The notes beneath the pieces were generated by a model. It saw nothing but the letters and a program-made list of their open reading frames with translations. It did not search any database and was not told where the DNA came from. 64,000 nt of DNA from Diadema setosum (taxonomy: Eukaryota; Echinodermata; Echinoidea; Diadematoida; Diadematidae), in the NCBI RefSeq assembly GCF_964275005.1, contig NC_092698.1, positions 23,367,809 through 23,431,808 on the forward strand, read 5' to 3'. The position numbers were made by a program, and so were the translations under genes. Positions 11,201 through 64,000 of this stretch are shown piece by piece (the stretch's first letter is position 1; every line of letters starts with the position of its first letter).

Positions 11201-14200
11201 TCTTCTGGTTAAGTCTGCCTCCTTCAATAGCCTGAAGATTCTTGCAGACCGGTGCTATTTACATTATAATACAATTTATTTACAGATATTTACAAGCACA
11301 TAGAAAATTTGACGAAAACAACTAGCCACTGTGATCAACCGTTAGACGGTTTCGAAATGATCCCACAGATGGCGCAGAAACAATGTCTGACGACAGGGAA
11401 TTCCAGTTCCTTACAGTTCTTGGGAAGAACGAATGGCGATGCGATTCAGTTCTCGAATATGGTACCTGATAGGAGTGTGGTTGCGAGGCTCTCGTTAACT
11501 GAGTAGCCTGTTTGATAATATAGTCCTGTGCTGAAAGAGGAGTAAGATTATTGTGTATTTTGTACATCATAATTAACCTGTCATTTTCTCTGCGCTGTTC
11601 CAGAGTGGTCCAATCAAGTTCTTGTAGCATTTTGGTGACACTTGAGGTGTTATGGTAGCGATTTAAAGTGAATCGCGCAGCTCTTCTCTGGACCATTTCC
11701 ACTTGGTGGATTAGCTTCTTGGTGGATGGGTCCCAAACTGTAGAAGCATACTCAACAATTGGTCGAACCAACGTTTTGTAAGCTGTGGCTTTAACATCAG
11801 AAGATTTTATGCGAAGATTGCGTTTTAGAAATGCAAGCACGTTATTGGCTTTATTAACAGTATTATTGATGTGTTGGGTCCACTTCAAATCAGAAGTAAT
11901 GGTTACACCTAAGTACTTCGCGGATTCAACAGATTCAAGAGGGGCGTTATTTAGATGATACACGTGTTGCACCTTACTTCTTTTCCTGGATATTGTCAAA
12001 ACCTTGCACTTATCTGTGTTCAAATCCATCATCCATTTTTTCGCCCAATCACCAATTTTGTTTAGGTCCTCTTGAAGATTTTGCGTATGATGTTGATTGT
12101 CGATGGTCATGTAAGAGATTGCATCATCGGCAAAAAGGCGAACCTTTGACGCGAGACCATCAACCAACTTCTTTCATCTTGCAATAACATCACTGTACAT
12201 TAATTTTTAGCTCCCAGTTAACATCTTGACAAATGCAATCTGTTGCATTTTCATGTTCAGCACTGAGTCTAGAAATGGTATACACTGTAAAACACAGTGT
12301 TCAGTAGAATTTTTGGGCGCATGTATCTTTTCTAATCAAAATCAAGCCATTCAGTTGAAAAACAGATTTTCAGCAGACAGTTGTTATTTGACCTTCACAT
12401 GTATGTTAGTACATTGTTTATACATTGTAGATGTCACATGGTGTACTGTATGTTCACCCACAAAAATTCCAACATAATTGTAGATTTTTTTTAAAGCAAT
12501 ATTTGCAGAAAGTTTGTCCCAGGTATCTCTCATTAAAGTGTTCTGTGTGTGATTCAGTGATATACATATACATGTATACTTACAGTTTGTACTTTCTAAT
12601 GAAAACATTATTTTGTAACTTTTTCATGTTTCAAAGCTATATATACAAAATAATGACAAAGGAATTTTTCTGTAAATTGTGATCACAATTTTAAGTGGAT
12701 TCTGGAAGGCGGATAAAACTGTACAGGGAAACCAAGGCATACAGTGTACCCTAATCTTACGTTGATGTGCTATAACTTTCAGATTGAATTTATAAATTTT
12801 TTGTGAACCCCCTCCCCTGAGTAGATATGTAGGGGCACGTTCTACTGAAATTAGTTAGCAACTGCATGGAATTGCCTTGGTATACTGTATGTATGCTAGC
12901 TGGGAACCTCAAACTTGTGTATTCGATGCTTCTGAACACAGTAAATTCCCTTTGGGGAGTTGTTTCATTTGATGTTCTTTGCTCTACAGAGTTTATATGT
13001 TCAGTGGTTTGTCTCCTTCTCTTTGGCATTTTGTGTCAGAGTGAATGAGAGAACAAACAAATAACAACCAAGGGGACATTGCTGCATTCATTGACAGTTC
13101 ATGAACTTTTGAATCCAGCTTGTTGAAACCCGAATCAATCAGAATGGTGGGCTAATTTCTGCAATTCCATACCAACAATGTACAAGTACAATTGTATGTA
13201 TGTACAGTATGTTAGGTCTATGAGTGTACAACTTACATGTATGTGTTAATGGAGGAGCTAGCAAAAAAAACAAAAACAAAAAAAAACAAAAACAAAACAA
13301 AAAAAAAAACAAAAAAAACAAACAAACAAACAAACAAGCAAAACAAAAAATGAATCCAGAGATGCAATTTTTCTGTATGCATATGGCAATTATTTCATTA
13401 TAAGTGGGGCCAAGTTTTGGTTACTGTATGATGATGACATTCTTGAGAAGCTGGAACCTGTGACAATGCCATTAGTAGTATAGTACATTATGTACACGTG
13501 TAACTTGTAATTTAGCCTGCTGCCACCCTGTTACAATTTCTCTTTCAAGATCTGTATACTGGGTAATACAATTTGTAGTATGGCACTGCTAAATTGGAAA
13601 GCGGCATTTCCAGGAAAATCTGTTCTAAGCTCTTAGATCTGAGCATTTCTTTTAAAACCATAATTTTTTAAAGGGAAATATACGCTGTATTGGATTCTGA
13701 ACAATGTTGACACATTAACTGAATTGGCTTATCTGAGGTTAAAGGGACTGTACAGTACTGGTTGGGGTAGGGATTCATGTTTGGAACATTCCTAAGTGAG
13801 ATAATGAAAATACTTCTATGAAATATGAAAGAGCATGTAATTTTAAGAAGGATTCAATGTTTATTTGATGAAAATTGGTTTTCAAATGGCTGAGATATCC
13901 AAAAAAGTGCTAATAATAAAAGGCGACATGCCCCAACTTTATTAGTATCTCTTTGTTTCACCTTGTTTTTGGATATCTCAGCCATTTCAAAACCGATTTT
14001 CATCGAATAAACTTTTGATACCCCTTAGAACTGCATGCTCTGTGACATCTCATAGAGCGGTTTCTGAATATCTCACAAAATGTTAAAAGCTAAATCTTCA
14101 CCTCGACCAGAACTGTACACACCCTTTAATAGTACTGTTCCTGTATCAAGTGCAAAATGGTTCTATGTAGAAAATGTTTCTTTGAATTATATCAACCATT

Positions 14201-17200
14201 TTTAAGGTATGATGATTGTACTGTATCTACCCTTTAATATTATGCAATATGTGCCTTATAATATTAGGAGATAATAATTATGTTTGTACTCTGGATCTTA
14301 CAGCTGATTCCTCTATTCGTTTGTGTGGGTGGAGGTGCTGTCTTTGCTGCATTCTACCTTGGAAGGCTGGCGATCAAGAACCCTGATGCCACGTAAGAAT
14401 TTAAATGTAACCTTTTCGGTTATTTACAATATTTGTAAATTGTACATGATTGGATTAGGAACCAGATATTTGTTGCAATGAGTTATAAATTGGTGGTTAT
14501 GGGTGTCAGCAGAAATACCAAACTGCTATAAAAGTTTCAAATCTTAGAATGTTATTGTAAAGGAATTCAGTCGTTGATGGAGTTGATGAAATGTAGAATT
14601 ATGACTACACTCATAATCTGATACACTAGTCAATTCCATCAACATACAGGAGCAGAAAACTAGTGTACAATTGTATTTTTTTATGCCTCTGCCACGAAGT
14701 GTCGCCGGAGGCATTATGTTTTTGGGCAAGTCCAAGCTATTTGATCACACAAGACTGAAAATTCAAAATGGGTCAATCTACATAAACTTGGTATCATTTT
14801 AAAGCTAAGAAGTTAAAATACATGAATTTCAAAAAGAAAAAGTAAAAATCCTTCCGCATAACTAGCAATGAATTAATTAATCTGCATAAATTAAAATTTA
14901 GAGTAACGCGTGGGACATTCAAAAATTCTGCATTTTAAAATATATCTTTTAATTTTTACAAGTTTTTATGAAAATAAGTATGGTGACCTTAAGTCTGACT
15001 AACAAGTTATCATGACTGTGATTTTCAGTTTCTCAACTGATCAAATATGCAAATGAGGGATGGGCCAAAATTAGCATGTCCCACGCGTTACTTTTTTAGG
15101 TCATTATTTCTCATTTGCATAAAAGTTAATGATTTAATTGACCTGAAACTTTCAAAAGACCAAATTCACAATGGACCTAATCATATCAAAGAGATAAAAA
15201 GTTAGTCTGATAAATCTCATACTTGCAATTTGCAATTAGATTTAGTAACGCGTGGGACATTTTAGTAACGCGTGGGACGATTTGTGTACAAGTCAATGGA
15301 AGTGTACTAAATCTTAGTCTTCTATGGGAAATGTGTACATTATTGAGGGATTTTTTGTAATTTTCTGAATTCTGACTTGAAATTTGGTGAAAAACTCCAC
15401 TTTGGATAAATAATTCACAAAAGATCATTACATGCTATTTTCAAGGTCACATTCAAAGTCAAATGTCAAAAAATAAAGGATAACACAGGCATTTCATATT
15501 TTTTATTATATCTATTGTTTTGGTGGGTCTAAATCATTTGAATTTGCAAGAATTTATTAGAAATACATCTATTTAGATAATTAGTACCCCATATTAAAGT
15601 TTCTCTGAGCATATGTGCAATTCACATCACAATATTCATAGTGACAAAAATGTCCCACGCGTTACTTGTCCCACGCGTTACTATACCTATCTTTCTATAA
15701 TTGACCTTGAGAGAAAACAGTTTCATGATTTTTTCTGAAATGTTTTGTTTCAGGTACAGTAATTGTTGTAGGAAAAGATGTTTGTAATGATTTTATAGTA
15801 TACCAAGTATTTTCACAATAATTGAGATAAAAGTAAAAGAAGAAAAAAAGGACAATTTTTATGGTCCCACGCGTTACTGGAGAATAGATTTGCATAAATT
15901 GAATACTGAATGCGTGATTCTCATTATTTCTATTGTTTTGAATGAAGATACCTACTAGCTATCAAAAGCAACCCAACATATGAAGTTTCAATCTTAACAG
16001 TGCAATATAGGGCTAAATCTTCTTGTGATGTCCCACGCGTTACTGGTGCAAAATAGCTTGGACTTGCCCTTTTGGGTTGTCCGTCCTACCGTTCGTCCGT
16101 CCGTAATCAATTTTGTGGACAGCATAACTAAAAAAACTGCCTTTCAACTTTTGGGTCCAGATGCTCAAGGTCAAAGGTCATGGTCAAATGCTCAAAATTT
16201 TACTCTTTCCCCCATATATCTATGCAATACCTGAAGGTATTTTCTTGAAACTTAGTGCATGTATTACCAAATTAACCCGTTGAGGACGAGTCCCGAGTAT
16301 ACTCGGGCAAGAGTCTATGAGAAATGCGTGTTGTAGCAAAATCAAACCGTCCTCAACGGGTTAAGATTCTCTAGTGAGAGTTTCTGGTCATGAGGTCAAA
16401 GTTCAAAGGTCAAGTGAATTTTTTTTTCCCTCCACATCTCACAAATGGTTCCAGGTATCTTCATAGTACATATGCATAACTGACTGGCAGTGATTATCTA
16501 GGGATTTTTGTGGTCATGAGGTCAAAGATCAGGTGTCAAAGGTCAACTCATTAAATGTCACTTTTCCATCATATTTACAGTGTATGCAGTGCTTGCAAGA
16601 TTTTTCTTGAAACTTGGTGTATACATGTATTAGGTTACCCAGTAGAGATTATCTGGGAAGTTTTGTTTTGTTTTGTTTTTTGTTTTTTTGCCAAGAAGGT
16701 CAAAGGCCAAAAGGTCAAAGGTCAAGCAAAAGTGCTAAATACCACTTCTTCCTCCATATCTTGGAAGTGGCTGAAGGTATCATCATGAAACTAATATTTA
16801 TGCATGTTCTGTCTGACAGTGATTCTCTTGGGCATTTGAAGTTGATAGGGTCAAAGGTCATGTCAAAATTCCAACAATTTTATGACAGATAATACACTTT
16901 TTCTCTATACCTTGATATTGTCCAATGCATAAACATATTTAAAGGTTAAACGTGAAGTAAAAGTCCTCAAATAACCAAATACATGCTCTCTTAGAAAATG
17001 TAGCCATTCATCCAATTAAATCTAGTTCAAGGAAGTGAATACTGAACACAGTATACATGTCATTTTGATATTTTGCCAACTACCTGGTAGATGAAACTGT
17101 CATCACACATTGTCAAGACGTAGTAAAGACCTATTAAGAGAATCATACCAACTGTTCTATTTTGCATTACATCTTGTATAAAATGTTTCGTAGGCTTGAG

Positions 17201-18478
17201 TGTGTTGCATTTCACTTTTCAGCCAAATTGTACTGCATATTTTCTCATGTCTGGATTTTTACATGCATTTCTTACAGATGGATGAGGAAATCGAATCCCA
17301 CGCCATGGAACAAAATCAAACCAAACGAGCAAGTGAAGGTACAGTACAACCTCTCTGTATTAATCAGATGGGCTCTGAATATTGAACATCGGGCAAGGGG
17401 GGGGGGGGGGTGGGGGTGATGATAAAACTAATGTCTGATTTATGAACGTCAACTTTATGAACCTTTGAACAAAATTATTTTACAAGATGACAGAGACCTG
17501 GAAAAGAGTCTAAGGTGAGGAAATGAATAATATTTGGGTCTATACTCGTAGCTCCAGACTTTAACTGTGTCCTGGTCAACAATGTAGGCCTACACTGTAC
17601 AACAACCGTCATTGATTTACAGTGTATATTGTTTGCAGACTTGTGTGATTTTTGAAACAACAAGAATAATGCCAGTATCTATCTGTGGGAATTTATTCCA
17701 CATTCCAATGTTATGCCAGTTATATTTTATAATATCAGGTGACAAGTTAATTATGTCAAGGAGAATTATGTTGTACATGTACATACACGCACACCTATAT
17801 ATGTACTGTGTGCAACATCTTTGTTGACATACACCTGTACATGTACTTGTATTAAAGTGGACACATCAGACTTTTATTGGACTGGTTATACACACCACAC
17901 AGTATCTGTGTTGTCTTTTTTTTTTTTATCATTGAGAAAAGAAATGTTGGCAGATCTTCAGCAATTAATATGGGATTTCATCTTTCTTCAATAGGGACCA
18001 ATAAGTCGTGCTGACATTGATGAAATGACAACTTATAAATGTCTGCTTACACACAAAATTGTGGTAACAATATCATGGGGGTAGAAAATTCAGCCCCCTT
18101 GGATACTAGAACTCCAATGCTTATTTGATACAATGTATTTAACAATTAACCCATTGAGGATGAGTCCCAGCTATACTTTGACAAGCGGCTATATATGGGA
18201 AATGCTTGTTGTAGCAAAATCAAATTGTCGTCAACAGGTTTACGTAAAATACAAGGTGCTGTATCTAGAATAGAATTTTATACATGTATACATGTACACC
18301 ACACCACTTTCAAAATAAACCACCCTCAATCTTTTGTCTTCTTTTTTCTTTTTTTCTTTTTTTTTTTTGTCACTTAACCAGAGGGCCTAATGTTCTTATT
18401 CATTCTTTTCTCTTTCAGTTTTATGCTGCCGGGAAGATCGACTACAAGAACCTGAAGAAGAACAGTCCAGAGTTTTAG
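8230..18478 (+). CDS. NDUFA4: NDUFA4 (COXFA4), cytochrome c oxidase-associated subunit, complete gene
   Basis: The coding sequence joins 8230-8277, 14304-14392, 17278-17338 and 18419-18478: 258 nt, 85 residues plus TAG (human about 81). Intron phases are 0, 2 and 0, and every intron is GT-AG. The family protein was first assigned to complex I and later shown to be a subunit of cytochrome c oxidase in the inner mitochondrial membrane. Diagnostic features seen here: LIPLFVCVGGG at residues 17-27 starts one transmembrane helix (about 17-40), followed by NPDATW, the conserved PWNKIKPNEQ block (about 55-64), and the C-terminal FYAAGKIDYKNLKKNSPEF end. Human NDUFA4 has the same order (LIPLFVFIG, NPD, PWNKLGPNDQ, FYSVNVDYSKLKK). 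No cleaved presequence is expected. All exons are intact and the gene looks functional. Confidence 0.95.
8379..8577. mobile_element. MITE in NDUFA4 intron 1
   Basis: The left end GTAAAACCAGACATATTCGCG and the inverse of the right end, GTAAAACCACATATTTTCGCG, are imperfect terminal inverted repeats. The inside is rich in TTCGC/GCGAA. About 0.2 kb, non-coding. The TTTTCGCG-rich style resembles the copies at 51682 and 52003. Confidence 0.6.
8578..10503 (+). other. NDUFA4 intron 1, no recognised feature
   Basis: No coding exon or clear inverted-repeat element was found here. There are scattered GCGCAAAAA/TTTTTGCGC words near 9790-9940 that may be remnants of TTTTCGCG-type MITEs. Confidence 0.4.
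10504..10675. mobile_element. Pogo-like MITE (CAGTG.ACTC ends)
   Basis: The right end, inverted, reads CAGTGCACTCCCGTTGTAACG, and the left end reads AGTGAACTCTGTTATAGTG. These match the TA-flanked CAGTGGACTCCCGTTATAACGAA type of the Tc1/mariner-pogo group. Non-autonomous, with diverged left end. Related copies lie at 19343-19530 and 20820-21148. Confidence 0.6.
10694..11136. mobile_element. MITE with TAGGCCCGTTCACACACAA ends
   Basis: The left end TAGGCCCGTTCACACACAA at 10694 is repeated in inverse at 11118-11136. TA may be the target duplication. The inside is full of ATCGCGAT and ATTTCG words in both orientations. A 139-codon open frame across it is a by-product of the AT/CG pattern, not a gene. 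It lies in NDUFA4 intron 1. Confidence 0.75.
11186..12175 (-). mobile_element. LINE fragment with intact C-terminal reverse-transcriptase frame
   Basis: On the - strand an uninterrupted frame (12167 to 11322, 281 codons) encodes the C-terminal half of a Jockey/CR1-group reverse transcriptase. It begins just before the catalytic FADD box (VRLFADDA). Then come W.M.LN..KCKVLTISRKR, AKYLGVTITSDLKW..HI, LKRNLRIKSSDVK, TLVRPIVEYASTVWDP and VQRRAARF. A 3' UTR of about 0.1 kb follows, ending in a (GAA)n tail at 11186-11206. The 5' end is cut at about 12175, so no endonuclease or N-terminal RT domain is present. The open frame suggests a young insertion. It lies antisense in NDUFA4 intron 1 and shares its 3' terminus with 46590-46664. 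Confidence 0.9.
12176..13738 (+). other. NDUFA4 intron 1, mostly plain, with an A-rich tract
   Basis: No exon or mobile element is recognised. An A-rich (CAAA/CAAAAA)n low-complexity tract covers about 13261-13350. Confidence 0.45.
13739..14129. mobile_element. 391-bp TTAA-flanked foldback MITE, copy A
   Basis: Starts TTAAAGGGACTGTACAGTAC and ends in the inverse CTGTACACACCCTTTAA, with TTAA at each end. The whole element folds on itself: GGCTGAGATATCCAAAAA near 13888 pairs with TTTTTGGATATCTCAGCC near 13967, and the outer arms share the inverted GAGGT.GGGATT block. The copy at 49601-49992 is almost the same in length and sequence. It ends 175 bp before NDUFA4 exon 2. Confidence 0.85.
14304..14392 (+). 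CDS. NDUFA4: NDUFA4 exon 2 (transmembrane helix)
   Basis: The acceptor is TCTTACAG and the donor GTAAGA. It encodes the hydrophobic helix LIPLFVCVGGGAVFAAFYLG and on to NPDA, ending two bases into a Thr codon (phase 2). This is the best-conserved part of the family. Confidence 0.93.
14724..16069. mobile_element. 1346-bp inverted-repeat element with eight GTAACGCGTGGGAC motifs
   Basis: The terminal inverted repeats are exact over 19 bp: GGGCAAGTCCAAGCTATTT at 14724-14742 and its inverse at 16051-16069. The insertion splits the host repeat at ATGTTTT|GGGTTGTCCG and leaves T-rich flanks, so the target duplication is short and T-rich but not exactly readable. Inside, the 14-bp word GTAACGCGTGGGAC occurs eight times. 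Copies on + start at 14903, 15245 and 15265. Copies on - (GTCCCACGCGTTAC) start at 15078, 15652, 15668, 15864 and 16030. The remaining sequence is AT-rich and non-coding. I do not recognise the family. The repeated word may be a transposase or host-factor binding site. Confidence 0.85.
16272..16364. mobile_element. 93-bp TTAACCCGTT mini-element, copy 1
   Basis: TTAACCCGTTGAGGACG at the left is repeated in inverse (CGTCCTCAACGGGTTAA) at the right, and the centre has the 16-bp palindrome CCCGAGTATACTCGGG. TTAA at both ends replaces what is a single A/T-rich site in sister copies of the host repeat, which fits a piggyBac-type TTAA target. It is identical in length to the copy at 42097-42189. Confidence 0.85.
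17278..17338 (+). CDS. NDUFA4: NDUFA4 exon 3
   Basis: The acceptor is TTTCTTACAG and the donor GTACAG. It completes the split Thr and encodes WMRKSNPTPWNKIKPNEQVK, with the PWNK motif typical of NDUFA4. It ends in phase 0. Confidence 0.93.
18146..18243. mobile_element. TTAACCC mini-element, diverged copy 3
   Basis: TTAACCCATTGAGGATGAGTCC at the left, AAATGCTTGTTGTAGCAAAATC in the middle and GTCGTCAACAGG at the right match the 93-bp element with many changes. The right TTAA is lost. It lies in the last NDUFA4 intron. Confidence 0.7.
18419..18478 (+). CDS. NDUFA4: NDUFA4 exon 4 with stop
   Basis: The acceptor TCTCTTTCAG sits downstream of a long T-rich tract. It encodes the terminal 19 residues FYAAGKIDYKNLKKNSPEF and stops at TAG 18476-18478. 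The human counterpart is FYSVNVDYSKLKKERPDF. Confidence 0.95.
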   Translation, partial: FYAAGKIDYKNLKKNSPEF

Positions 18479-42800: not shown

Positions 42801-45800
42801 CAAACACAGTTGTTCTAGCGTGAATGGTTTTAAAAGTAGTTCCAGCAATATACCAAATATACTTTTTATGCCTCCGCCAACGAAGTGGCCGGAGGCATTA
42901 TGTTTTCGGGTCGTCTGTCCGTCCGTCCGTGTGTACGTCCATCCGTCCCGTTTTGTTTTTGTCGATATCTCAAGAACCGTGTGGTGGTTTTGCATCAAAC
43001 TTGGTATGAGGGTATATCCTTGGGGGTTGATACTTTGTGTGGATTTTAGGGTCACAGGGTCAAAGGTCAAAGGTCACAGGTTATTTTGTGGAAAAAAAAA
43101 TTGAAATTTCATGTTTTTCTCCATATCTCGCAAATGGTTCAAGGTATCTTCATGGACGTTATGCTTGTACGGATGGGCAGTGATTATCTAGGGAAGTTGG
43201 GGGTCATGGGTCAAAGGTCAAGGTCAACTCCTCAAAATATAACTACTTTCCTTATATTTATGCAATGCCTGAAGGATTTTTTTTAAAACTTGATGTATGC
43301 ATGTATAACCCAATATTCTGTGGAAAGTTTGTTGCCAAAAGGTCAAAGGTCAACGGTCAAGTGAAAGTGCTAAATTGCATTTTTCTTCCGTATCTCAAAA
43401 ATAACTCAAGGTATTGTCATGAAACTTACATATTTATGCATGTTCTACCTAACAGTGATTCTCTTTGGAACTGTGGGGTCAAAGGTCAAAGGCCAGGTTT
43501 CGATAATACTATTTTACCATTTGATACTGAAATTATACTTTTTCTCAATACAGTTAAACTCGCCTAAGTCGACGTCGCATATGTCGAATAATCGCGTAAG
43601 TCGATGATTTTAAAAAGTCCCGATTTTTCCCCATTGACTTACGTGTATTAATTCACTCACAAGTCGAATTTTGTAAGTCGAATACTCGCCTAAGTCGATG
43701 AAATTCCAAGAACACTTTCACGGAAAAACCATTGAATTCACTGTGCCTAAGTCGAATAAGATTTTATTGTGTAATAAATCACTGTCATTCATTATTCATT
43801 ATTTATTACTCATCATTATTTTGTTTGTCAGATGAGTTTGATGTGACAAAAAAAAAACGATCTAAAATCAAAATTCAAAGCGATCGCATGGGATCGTTGA
43901 ACTCTCTTCGTGTTTGGAGGTCCGCTGATACAGCCCTGTCAGCTGTCGCGCTACGTACGTACAGCGTTCGTACAGTACACATGCGTTCATTTACATGTAC
44001 AGTATTGAGCTTGCAGTGTAGCTTGGCATTTGCAGCGCTGTGCAGTCAATGGTATAATGGATGAAGCTGCTGAGTTTTCAAAGCGGAAAGTAGGGGGAAA
44101 GTTACGGGCACGGGTAAATCAAATTGCACCTCTACACGCATTTCAAGCCACGGTATGGTATACTAGAATCAATCACTGCTCAAATATCGTTCATATTCAC
44201 TTCCCCAAGGTTTAACAAGGGTGTAAAGTAATCGGACCTGTGCCAATACTAATGCACTGTCCATGCAAAGTTAGCCGTGGCCCTGCCGGGCGACCCGTGC
44301 CGCGGCACATCGCTCCAGCTCTCGGCTCCAGAGTAGACAACATATACATTATACATACATGTATGTACGTGTGGTGAAACTGTAAGTCGATTTTTTTTCG
44401 ACTTACGCACAAGTCGAAAATCGCCTAAGTCAATGTGTTTTGCTCAGTCCCTAGAAGATCGACTTATGCGAGTTTAACTGTACCTTGAAAATTACTCAAT
44501 GCATAAACTTGTAAAAGGGTCAAAAGTCAAGTGAAAATCATCAGTTCCCCCAAATACCTGCACTCTGACGTTTTAATCATTCATCCAATTGAACCTAGTT
44601 CTAGGAAAGTGAACATTCAGCACATTTGTGGCAAACCTGTCATTTTAATATTTTGCCAATTGTGTGAAACTGTCATCACACATTGTCAAGACATTGTACT
44701 ATAGACCTATTAGGAGAACCATGTATTATGGCGGAGGCATACACCAGTCGCCGTAGCGACATTTCTAGTTTAACAATGAAATGTCATGAAAATGATAGAA
44801 GAGGTTTAACTTTACAAGATCTATGCAGTGAAGAGGGTGCACATTAAATGGCAACTCTGTGGGATGTGCCAAAAAATATTCCACCCTCACAGCAATATAT
44901 AAAACATATAAAATCATATAATTAATGTGAATATATATGTTCCAAACGTACATGTCTTCAAAATGCCATCGTGCCGTATAGTAAAGGCACTTTTGTTTCC
45001 AAGAAATACAACTTATTAATAGAGGAGACATTGCTCACTCTACAAAAACTATATTGTCAAAAGGGTGAACATTCAAAATTAATCCCTTGGGAGGTGTCCA
45101 AATTCACACCTAAGCTCTTGTTACAAAACACAGATATTAGCAACGCAAATACCGTTGTTCTAGCGTGAATGGTTGTAAAAGTAGTCCCGGCAATACAGCA
45201 AATACAATTTTCATCGATGACAAGTAATGGAAATGATAGAAGAGACTTAACTTTACAAGATCTATACAGTGAAGAGGGTGCGCATTAAACGGCAACCCTA
45301 TGGGATGTGCCAAAAATACTCCACCCTCAAGGCAATATACATGTAGAAAACATATAATATATAACGCGAATATATGTTCCAAACGTACATGTTTTCGAAA
45401 TTCCAGTGTGCCGTATAGCAAAGGCACTTTTGTATCCAAAAATGCAACCAATTACTAGAGGAGGTATTGCTCTACAATAACTACATTGTCAAAAAGGTGA
45501 ACATTCAAAGGTAATCTCTGGGGAGGTGTCTAAATTTACACCTATGCTCACGGCCATTATTACAAACCATTAGCAACGCAAATACAGTTGTTCTAGCATG
45601 AATGATTTTAAAAGTAGGTCCGATGTAGCAAATACACGATCAATGAAAAGTCATGGAAATGATAGAAGATTTACCTTACAAGATCTATCATAATAAAGAG
45701 GGTTCTTATTGAAGGGCGATCCTGTGCCGTGTGCCCCAAATGCCCTTTGTCCTCTTGCCAATATAGAAAACATATATTATCATATAACGCAAATATATAT

Positions 45801-60899: not shown

Positions 60900-61863
60900 C
60901 ATGCAAACGCATGTTTGGGTTCAAGGCGTTACAATGGGATGTCTAGCATTCCACTACGCTTTGAAGTCATGCTCGGCACCGCTCTAGTTGCGAGACGAAG
61001 TTCGGAGACGAAGAACGCATTACACCTTTCGTTGAATTACAAGCTTTATTTCACCGTAAAATTGTAAATGAAATACTCGAATTGATTTAGAATAGTTTAG
61101 GAAAGAATTCAATATTATAAACATTTATTTCTAGTTTCTTCGTAATGTGCAAAACGAAATGAAATGAAAATTAGGCCCTCTTATAAACCTTATATTTTTC
61201 TATAATGTGCACGTTTCCGCATGTTAGTTTTCTATCTTTTAATCTGGGATATTTTGATCTTTCAAATAAAGTACTCCGCTAAAGCGTGTTCCAGCGTGCT
61301 TTTAAACTATTTGCTGTTAAAATTGTCAGTTTTACACTGCATTTTGATTAGCTGCTCCAATTCAAGGTACACAAATTCATTGTTGCCATCACATTGAAAG
61401 AGAGAGCAAATAGCAGTAGGGGTAAGTATTTCTAGATGTGAGAACGCTAGTCCCGATTATTGATGCTCTCTTTTGTCAAAGCACCTGGTTTCCACCTGTA
61501 GTTAAGCGCATGACTTCAAAGGAGAGCAGGAATTGTCTCTCCTTCTCTAGCACCTCCCTGGTATATCCTATACAAATACATTTACTCTGTAGGTTCTATC
61601 CAGTACACCCTGAATTGTTTTTAGCATTTTTACACTGAATCTGGTACTTCCAATGTATAATATTTTGTGACTGTTGTTCATTTCATGTGACGCACAAAAC
61701 ACAAAATTAGTATTACTTTACATGTATGCATGCAGTGTTGCTTTGGTGCCAAAACCTTTTGTATCTCAAATTTTGGTGAAAACCACAATCAGTTGTCACA
61801 TAGGTCCTACTTGACATCCTGTCTAAATACTGGTACTATTGTACTTCCAACATAAAGCCACCA
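60900..61863 (+). other. SLC30A intron 2, no recognised feature
   Basis: No exon matching the expected next ZnT block (ILGA...) is seen. Plain AT-rich sequence. Confidence 0.4.
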
Positions 61864-62039: not shown

Positions 62040-62792
62040 CACCATGGCATGTCAAAGGAAGGGCAATCCCTTTTGTTATAGTGCTTTGGCTCAGTCAGCA
62101 AAAGTGAGAATACTGTACATACAGTACATTATGTGCTCTATTTGTCCAGTTGGACAGACTGCTGGTAAATAAATCACATACCAAATGTTCACTTTTGTGG
62201 TATGCATAAGAAATTCAATCAAACGCTATATTGATAAGGGTGTGATAAGTCTGTTTGTATATGGCCTTTTTTACGATCAGTGGTGTAACTTTTGTACTCA
62301 GAGGGTCAAAATTTCAAACAAAATATTTTTTCATTATTCTGTTTGATTCCTGTTGGAAAGTATTCAAATTTTTGAAAAAATAACATTTCAGACCTTAAAG
62401 CTGAAGAGTTATTGGTGTAATTTAAGGAAAACCCTGGCACCTGGAGTAAATTTAAGCAAAATTTTGTTTTCATGAATTGCACCATAATGACAAAACTCTG
62501 TAGTCAAACTTCACCATGCAAAGTTTATATGGTTAACAACAATATATAGTTTGTGAATCAAAACTATTTGGGGGTTGAATATAAAGTGAATTTAAAAAAA
62601 AATACATGAGATTTATAAATTTTTGGTAAAAATACCAACTGACATGCAATTTTTAAGATTTTAACTATTTAATGGAGGGCAAGCCAGGTCAAACTCTATA
62701 CTATAACAAGTCTTTAAGAAGGGCTATCTTCCTATGTAGGTTAAATGAAATTCCAATCATTTCTTTAAATCTTGGATTTTTCACACATGGAT
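62040..62792 (+). other. SLC30A intron 2, no recognised feature
   Basis: AT-rich sequence without exon or clear repeat. It may be the left part of whatever element carries the motif repeats that follow. Confidence 0.35.
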
Positions 62793-63448
62793 GTTTCGGA
62801 GGTGACAGTTAACATAATAGAATGTTTCGGAGGTGACATTAATATTAACACTCAGTTTTTTTTGAGAATAAGTGACAATAACACAAAACTTCTTCTTTTT
62901 ATCAATGTTTTTAATAATCATAACTCGAGAACAAGAAATTAACTCCTGTTTCAAGCAGATAAACCACACAGAACAAGTGTTTTTTTACACTTCATTAATT
63001 AGCATGGGCACCGGTAGTTTGCCTTCCATTTGGACGAAGGTTGTAAGCTAAATATTGTAATCTGAAGAAACGTGGCATTCCATTTTCTACCTTAAATTGA
63101 GATGAGGGTGTGAGATCATTTTAGTAATGTTTCTTTGCTCTCAGAACATTTTATTCCACAACACCAGGGAAGAATCACTTCGTTTCGGAGGTGACATTCA
63201 ATGTTAACATTGTGTTGAAATATTCATTTACAGTAAGAATATGACGGACATATTTAAAGCTAGATATTGTAATCTGAAGAAACATGGCATTCCATTTTCT
63301 ACCTTAAATTGAAATGAGTGTGTAAGATCATTTTAGTAATGTTTCTTTGCTCTCAGAACATTTTTTTCCACAACACCAGGGAAGAATAACTGTGTTTCGG
63401 AGGTGACATTTAATGTTAACATTGTGTTCAAGTATTCATATAGTATGT
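62793..63448. repeat. Region with four GTTTCGGAGGTGACA motifs and a 212-bp tandem duplication
   Basis: The 15-bp word GTTTCGGAGGTGACA is exact at 62793, 62824, 63182 and 63394, all on the + strand, and mostly followed by (T)TAA.(A)TTAACA. From 63046 a 212-bp unit (AGCTA.ATATTGTAATCTGAAG to GTTAACATTGTGTT) is repeated from 63258 to about 63448. No terminal inverted repeats were found, so the borders of any element are unknown. Confidence 0.8.
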
Positions 63449-63905
63449 CCCCCCCCCCCCCAAAAAAAAAGAATTACAATTAGACTTTTGCATTGATAGC
63501 ACCCAATATGATTAAATCAGCTAAAATCTACTTTGGGGTCTTAAATTATAACATCTTAGCTCTATTTTGCAGAAAGCCCCAGTCAATTTGGTTAAGTGGT
63601 CTCAAAGAAATGTGGATTGTTATAAAGGATGTCAGGAGTCTGATTCTTCCAAGTTTAGCACTTGGATGCTCTTGGAACTGCATATTAATGTGTAAACACA
63701 ATATACAGAACTTGGAGGGAAGGGATTCCTGACATGCTCTACAAAAATCCTCATTTGTCTTTGACCTCTGAAGCAAATTGAATGGGGTTTTCTGTAAGGT
63801 GTGGGCAATGAGTTATAGTTTCAATCCCTCAAATTGTATTTTAGATTGATTCACTATCTTTAAAGTTATCGTTGCGGAGGGTACCATTGTAATTTTTTGG
63901 TGGGG
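63449..63905. mobile_element. ~457-bp element with CCCCCCAAAAAAAA ends, copy 2
   Basis: It matches 57571-58060 throughout in the same orientation (ACTTTTGCATTGATAGC, TTTTGCAGAAAGCCCC, CACTTGGATGCTCTTGGAAC, GTTATCGTTGCGGAGG). The right-hand T and G runs are much shorter here (TTTTTTGGTGGGG). It directly follows the motif-repeat region. Confidence 0.72.
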
Positions 63906-64000
63906 ACATAGGTTATGAATGCCAAAAGCAAAAATTCTTATTTGACTTGTATTATGTTTTTGTTTGCACATAGTATTATAGATAGATTAATTCAAGGATG

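Follow-up and report, generated by a model that had tools for sequence, protein, structure and literature searches.

Sibling transposon families in Diadema setosum carry family-specific 14-bp words in a mostly retained layout

A 1346-bp element in Diadema setosum belongs to a recently mobile, non-autonomous terminal-inverted-repeat DNA transposon family (family A) and carries a 14-bp word eight times. It was found in a 64,000-nucleotide stretch of contig NC_092698.1 (assembly GCF_964275005.1, forward strand, 23,367,809 to 23,431,808), here called the window. Mobility marks, copy number, constraint on the words, a largely conserved layout and concerted word replacement are all observed: the A words are under constraint, and in the sibling families C, D and E the word is replaced in concert while the layout is mostly retained. 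Judging from these sequence patterns, the A words are probably recognition sites of an element-specific protein supplied in trans, either a transposase or a TNPA-like factor, which would assemble the ends into a complex, with site and protein forming family-specific pairs.

The element has no genes of its own (no stop-free ORF longer than 87 aa lies within 14724-16069) and sits in an intron of an NDUFA4-like gene. The original prediction of an insertion with exact 19-bp ends in an NDUFA4 intron, carrying eight exact words, three on the plus and five on the minus strand, was borne out: the ends are perfectly inverted and NDUFA4-like exons flank the element. A third NDUFA4-like piece at 18413-18475 matches weakly (E 0.12). 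The features are as follows.

14304..14387, plus strand: NDUFA4-like coding exon upstream of the element (E 4e-07)
14720..14723, no strand: target site duplication TTTT, left copy (junction analysis of 34 copies)
14724..16069, plus strand: whole family-A element, 1346 bp, 0.74% from the 34-copy consensus
14724..14742, plus strand: left terminal inverted repeat GGGCAAGTCCAAGCTATTT, perfect 19 bp
14903..14916, plus strand: A word 1, 180 bp from the left end
15078..15091, minus strand: A word 2, 355 bp from the left end
15245..15258, plus strand: A word 3 (inner pair), 522 bp from the left end
15265..15278, plus strand: A word 4 (inner pair), 542 bp from the left end
15652..15665, minus strand: A word 5 (inner pair), 405 bp from the right end
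15668..15681, minus strand: A word 6 (inner pair), 389 bp from the right end
15864..15877, minus strand: A word 7, 193 bp from the right end
16030..16043, minus strand: A word 8, 27 bp from the right end
16051..16069, minus strand: right terminal inverted repeat, 19 bp, pairing perfectly with GGGCAAGTCCAAGCTATTT
16070..16073, no strand: target site duplication TTTT, right copy (junction analysis of 34 copies)
17288..17338, plus strand: NDUFA4-like coding exon downstream of the element (E 1e-04)

With up to three mismatches allowed, the A word GTAACGCGTGGGAC matches the window nine times (the eight exact copies and one with three mismatches at 60919), against a mean of 1.85 and a maximum of 5 matches in 100 window shuffles. 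The base before each word is A in all eight cases and the flanks otherwise vary between sites, so that about 14 bases form the unit. An empty site is plausible, as an uninterrupted copy of the host repeat at 42891-42920 differs by three mismatches from the element's two flanks joined. Also near the NDUFA4-like gene, a stop-free ORF of 283 aa at 11322-12173 on the minus strand of the window weakly matches a reverse transcriptase (PF00078, E 4.5e-07).

The genome (912,680,840 bases in 102 contigs) contains 424 exact A words versus 4 for a reversed-pattern control, and 133 exact 19-bp A ends (67 + 66) versus 0. The element is thus repeated, and the interval is not unique DNA with no other copies, the outcome named in advance as speaking against the prediction. 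Viral contigs gave no match to the 19-bp end. A similarity search returned 35 full-length matches (1-1346), the window's own included, among 40 scored of 105 seen. The copies that match 1-1346 in one stretch, drawn from 56 places (55 loci and the window), make up a set of 34; the remaining 22 places, interrupted, partial or of family B, were excluded (L010, L014, L016, L021, L023, L024, L026, L028-L038, L040, L042, L043, L058), and the full A copies L067 and L069-L071 came after the set and stand outside its counts. An exact 4-bp target duplication flanks 26 of the 34 copies, and at least three of the four bases match in 32, while in a control that paired flanks across different A copies 4-bp agreement occurred in 16 of 1122 pairs. 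Family A therefore combines inverted ends with a fixed-length duplication in many dispersed copies, the pattern by which terminal-inverted-repeat transposons are recognised. The 34 copies lie 0.4-4.7% from their consensus.

Whether words are more conserved than the rest of the aligned copies had been proposed as a check, and they are, once CpG positions are separated and enough copies are used. Thirteen copies with CpG pooled gave 0.0137 changes per site in words versus 0.0172 in the rest, which is not significant (fraction 0.30). Across the 34 copies, the 79 non-CpG word sites show 8 changes (0.0030 per site per copy) versus 662 at 1189 background sites (0.0164), and CpG positions mutate faster, at 0.031 in words and 0.118 in the background. 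Variants common to at least two of the 34 copies, which most simply arose in lineages that kept moving, occur at none of the 79 non-CpG word sites versus 104 at the 1189 background sites, and 0 of 5000 permutations were as low. Because 12 of the 34 copies had been chosen from the word list, a separate count was made on 22 copies (21 chosen by their ends, plus the window copy). For shared variants the permutation fraction in these was 0.0032, and it was 0.059, not significant, in the 12 word-listed copies. Private changes gave fractions of 0.014 (34 copies), 0 (22 copies) and 0.078, not significant (12 word-listed); the 22-copy set has one private change at the 79 sites versus about nine expected from the background. 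That an ordinary repeat carries these words by chance can be given almost no credence: beyond its AT-rich background nothing favours this reading, already refuted by the genome counts and also by the shuffles, the constraint and the layout tests below. As a separate observation, the words contain 17 of the 20 CpGs in the consensus of 13 A copies, and these mutate at roughly ten times the rate of other word positions, which would fit methylation of A copies after insertion.

An older relative, family B, has the same ends as A and a different middle, with a 2349-bp consensus built from seven copies chosen by exact ends or words; its target duplication is TGAA in the single copy examined (L014). 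Over 1031 positions shared by the two consensus sequences, words are identical at 110/112, tips at 38/38 and the rest at 673/881, where the conservation of the tips is partly built in, most copies having been selected with the tips as a criterion. The words were more conserved than every one of 20000 random sets of eight 14-bp blocks (best 0.9375). Other blocks are kept between A and B as well:

15040..15060, no strand: non-word block, consensus ATTAAATATGCAAATGAGGGA, with octamer ATGCAAAT
15093..15125, no strand: non-word block of 33 bp, holding ATTTGCAT

The words are therefore not the sole constrained part, and of the predicted "conserved words in neutral filler" the conserved words stand while the filler is not wholly neutral. 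The octamer-like ATGCAAAT/ATTTGCAT blocks may possibly mark a host POU factor or a second type of site. Since these blocks lie near some words, they also speak for a host factor (cell-cycle, POU-domain or similar) binding the words themselves, as does the ACGCGT contained in the A word; the sibling families make this reading very unlikely.

Family C is a 2957-bp insertion beside a B copy, flanked by an imperfect duplication (AGAG/AGAA) and carrying the word GTAACTGACGTTAC between ends GGGCAATTCCACGGT; its host is read as a Ty3/Gypsy-like pol gene, by integrase domains and by eye. The C ends occur 390 times in the genome (196 + 194) versus 0 in the control, and target duplications are exact over 4 bp in 5 of the 7 assessable among eight copies (L083 ends at its flank). 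Family D is a 3022-bp element within an A copy, with ends CAGCCATTCCAT and duplication AGTA; its word GTCACGCGAGTCAC has seven sites in the one copy, five of them exact, and its right end occurs 20 times (11 + 9) versus 0. Family E is interrupted by an A copy and has ends GGGCAAGTCCAAGATAA and duplication ATAT, with eight sites, seven exact, for its word GTTACGTATGGGAC in the first copy. A longer E copy, L085, has ATTA on both sides, so that duplications are exact in both of two copies. E ends number 326 (158 + 168) versus 0, and E words 582 (307 + 275) versus 9 (3 + 6). Family E was found by scanning loci for repeated 14-mers of the form GNNAC-N4-GNNAC, and the recurrence of this form in later finds is partly circular, because A, C and D had suggested it.

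The distances of the words inwards from the two ends, in bp, are as follows.

A: right end 27, 193, 389, 405; left end 180, 355, 522, 542
E: 25, 176, 371, 386 and 181, 346, 514, 534
E, copy C3:34214153-34216238 (coordinate subtraction): 25, 193, 389, 404 and 181, 346, 514, 534; copy C3:32874131-32876231 agrees with these within 1 bp
E, copy C2:20946367-20949247 (coordinate subtraction): 25, 187, 382, 397 and 179, 344, 515, 535
E, longer copy L085 (seven of eight sites): 199, 394, 409 and 178, 337, 511, 531
D (by subtraction): 14, 191, 379, 401 and 359, 526, 559
C, eight copies, up to three mismatches: at one end 14 and 191 in 8/8, 386 in seven, 400 in seven, extra sites at 597-626 in 8/8; at the other end about 359 and 526 in 8/8, a third site at 558-568 in six

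No site near 180 is present in families C and D, whose inner pair at this end has the opposite orientation. The layouts were compared with random placement using one copy per family, omitting C's extra sites at 617 and 631 and a poor match near 195. Within 20 bp, A and E agree at 8/8 sites and C and D at 7/7 (each 0/20000), and the remaining pairs at 7/8 (A/C 0.00005, A/D 0.0001, E/C 0.00005, E/D 0.0001). Within 10 bp, C/D still agree at 7/7 (0/20000), A/E at 6/8 (0.0003), A/C at 5/8 (0.00075) and A/D at 5/8 (0.001); E/C (2/8, 0.37) and E/D (3/8, 0.10) are no better than chance at this tolerance.

Aligning the ends of A with those of E places every one of the eight A words on an E word. Positions 3, 7 and 8 are changed at 8/8 sites, and one site has two further changes; two of the three common changes convert the CpG at positions 7-8 to TpA. 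Outside the words, 429 of 849 positions are identical (51%, in a forced end-to-end alignment), and blastn finds identities of 59% (559 bases) and 62% (272 bases). Gene conversion, too, would change all eight sites in concert, and the inner pairs (16-20 bp apart in A) resemble local duplications, so the words might be a functionless by-product of duplication and conversion, kept alike by homogenisation. This is highly improbable, since the flanks are unlike beyond a base or two and the A and E words stand in both orientations; it also leaves the kept positions unexplained, A and E sites being retained over about 50% divergence. Nor does a single host factor explain four different words at corresponding positions in one genome, two of them, those of C and E, without ACGCGT. 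As C and E keep most positions with such words, the suggestion that ACGCGT acts here as it does at a fungal cell-cycle regulator site is unsupported. Of the predicted binding sites for a transposase or a host factor, constraint thus fits the binding sites, and the four family words argue against one host factor.

A long autonomous relative of the kind proposed for a search, encoding a transposase between the same ends, was not found in the loci read, and no transposase or DNA-binding gene lies between such ends in the copies read. Of the 133 A ends, 100 were listed, and the seven exact pairs among these that span more than 1.5 kb were read as candidates and rejected: L028, L032, L033 and L034 are A copies with inserts, and L029, L030 and L031 older family-B copies. 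Eight further loci were read from 72 right-end places; L067 and L069-L071 proved to be full A copies, L065 and L072 belong to family B, L068 has about 180 bp in common, and in L066 an A copy is split by element D. L036 retains only about 180 bp of the left end, and L037 about 200 bp, with a decayed right end 1.6 kb away. A Pfam hmmscan of 23 ORFs (10 + 6 + 7, four being window ORFs outside the element) gave no TIR-type transposase; the mobile-element matches were just an L040 integrase and the window reverse transcriptase fragment. At L040 2872-4347, with L064, an ORF with integrase core PF00665 appears to be part of a Ty3/Gypsy-like pol interrupted by a C copy; lying downstream of that copy, it was rejected as a Ginger-type transposase. 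The E copy L085 is 5531 bp long with a 3.4-kb middle that has no match to the other E copy, no ORF longer than 103 aa and no Pfam match in the four scanned of its six ORFs of at least 70 aa. Two E-type left ends, C2:221322 (to about 228.7 kb) and C2:417582 (to about 426 kb), have further words 7-8 kb away, their end coordinates being estimated from the outermost listed word; both are possibly long or autonomous copies. A further longer E-type candidate lies on C1 at 16996321-17001897.

Other word-bearing repeats were seen alongside. At the window edge, from 62278 to 64000 and continuing in L076 as far as about 67116 (window numbering), another word-bearing element has GTTTCGGAGGTGAC four times exactly inside the window and further copies outside it, between ends CAGTGGTGTAA that look hAT-like; its word positions are unlike the layout of families A to E, and a target duplication could not be resolved. 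L042 6095-6808, outside the transposon, has GTTACCATGGCAAC five times at spacings of about 160-220 bp. This array may be a satellite, and its repeated motif resembles an RFX X-box.

The most fitting reading of a non-autonomous element with conserved tips, long conserved ends and nearly fixed internal sites is that it serves as a substrate for movement in trans and that the sites bind an element-specific protein. The family-A element would have moved by cut-and-paste, its ends acting as long compound recognition regions of about 0.4-0.56 kb with four 14-bp sites each. A sequence-specific protein of an autonomous relative, transposase or TNPA-like accessory factor, would most probably bind the eight sites and build an end-to-end complex, in which the conserved tips would be cut. 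In the sibling families, site and protein would have changed together, so that each family would respond to its own protein.

The main rival to this end complex, although unlikely, is that an element-encoded protein for anti-silencing or transcription targets the words, which would have no part in cutting or joining of the ends, as with VANC21 of the VANDALs, which are Mutator-like plant elements. Targets of VANC are described as short motifs repeated in non-coding TE DNA that differ between related families and co-evolve with the protein (PMC5735166), and the words here are likewise CpG-rich (17 of 20 consensus CpGs, as above) and different between sibling families. The VANC targets are, however, reported as tandem repeats that vary considerably among related elements (PMC5735166), whereas here number and end distances are largely kept. 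A gene of either kind, for transposition or for anti-silencing, was found in none of the loci read. The kept word distances favour the end complex over a VANC-like role, though the data do not decide between them.

On a tentative reading, which we put forward as a possibility of less than even weight, the families could represent an animal transposon group, perhaps an undescribed superfamily, with a largely kept lattice of about eight 14-bp sites at a spacing of about 150-200 bp, tight inner pairs and a word replaced in concert according to each family's DNA-binding protein. If so, a spacing near the nucleosome repeat would let the complex be read on chromatin. Subterminal motif arrays are already known; in the present case, the site layout is mostly shared among families of one genome, with the word changed at every site. 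This makes the evolution of transposon specificity testable, namely how change in a protein can be matched at about eight dispersed sites, and raises the question of whether the word change stops families moving one another. The families are ready reporters, in which word, layout and tips can be varied separately.

Diagnostic features of several known superfamilies are lacking in these elements. hAT elements make 8-bp duplications, and none of the 34 A copies has 5 to 8 matching junction bases. The TTAA target of piggyBac and Kolobok occurs in 0 of 26 exact A duplications and 1 of 5 exact C duplications, and Helitrons have neither target duplications nor inverted ends, both of which A has. The tips, GGG...CCC in A and CAGCC in D, do not fit CMC (CACTA/Chapaev), although repeated subterminal motifs, a CMC feature, are found here. 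Chapaev elements share a 3- to 4-bp duplication and occur in a wide range of animals, but their ends are described as invariably CAC...GTG (PMC4079192) and those of A are not. The 4-bp duplication of family A is a Sola feature, and Sola2 is likewise described with 4-bp AT-rich duplications (PMC3627910), a likeness in the duplication alone; the ORFs scanned here contain no Sola transposase, nor that of another TIR superfamily.

The Repbase rule for non-autonomous elements asks for the same duplication length and at most one mismatch in the first 11 bases (PMC4455052). A, B and E (GGGCAAGTCCA) and C (GGGCAATTCCA) agree within this limit and in a 4-bp duplication, that of B being seen in one copy, and by this rule they belong together as one superfamily. 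Family D (CAGCCATTCCA) has three mismatches to C and so falls outside the rule by its tip; its layout and its 4-bp duplication (one copy) agree. No transposase that could place the group in a known superfamily was found in the loci read. Open-licence literature gave no match to the A word; matches to further sequence strings, judged by their listing, were none of them on transposons, and a general search on subterminal sites and coevolution gave nothing related.

For a trans-moved element with such sites, CACTA (En/Spm-type) elements and their TNPA appear to be the closest mechanistic model. Many copies of a short motif occupy both ends, in soybean Tgmt* as far as 732 bp inside the tip, the motif differs between families while terminal repeats are conserved, and non-autonomous derivatives are moved in trans (PMC2613891). 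These subterminal repeats are recognised by TNPA and determine excision in cis, and from family to family both the motif and its binding protein diversify (PMC2613891). The tips here are GGGCAA... and not CACTA, and the duplication is 4 bp in place of the 3 bp of Tgmt*, whose ends have 4 and 24 repeats (PMC2613891), whereas site number and distances are largely kept across the families described here. For concerted change of a word and its reader, VANC would be the closest model, by analogy and in anti-silencing. Its motif in Arabidopsis VANDAL elements, YAGTATTAY for VANC21, is short, scattered in non-coding TE DNA and family-specific in step with a TE-encoded protein (PMC5735166). VANDAL motifs are described as considerably varying tandem repeats (PMC5735166), while those of families A to E are spread, with close pairs only.
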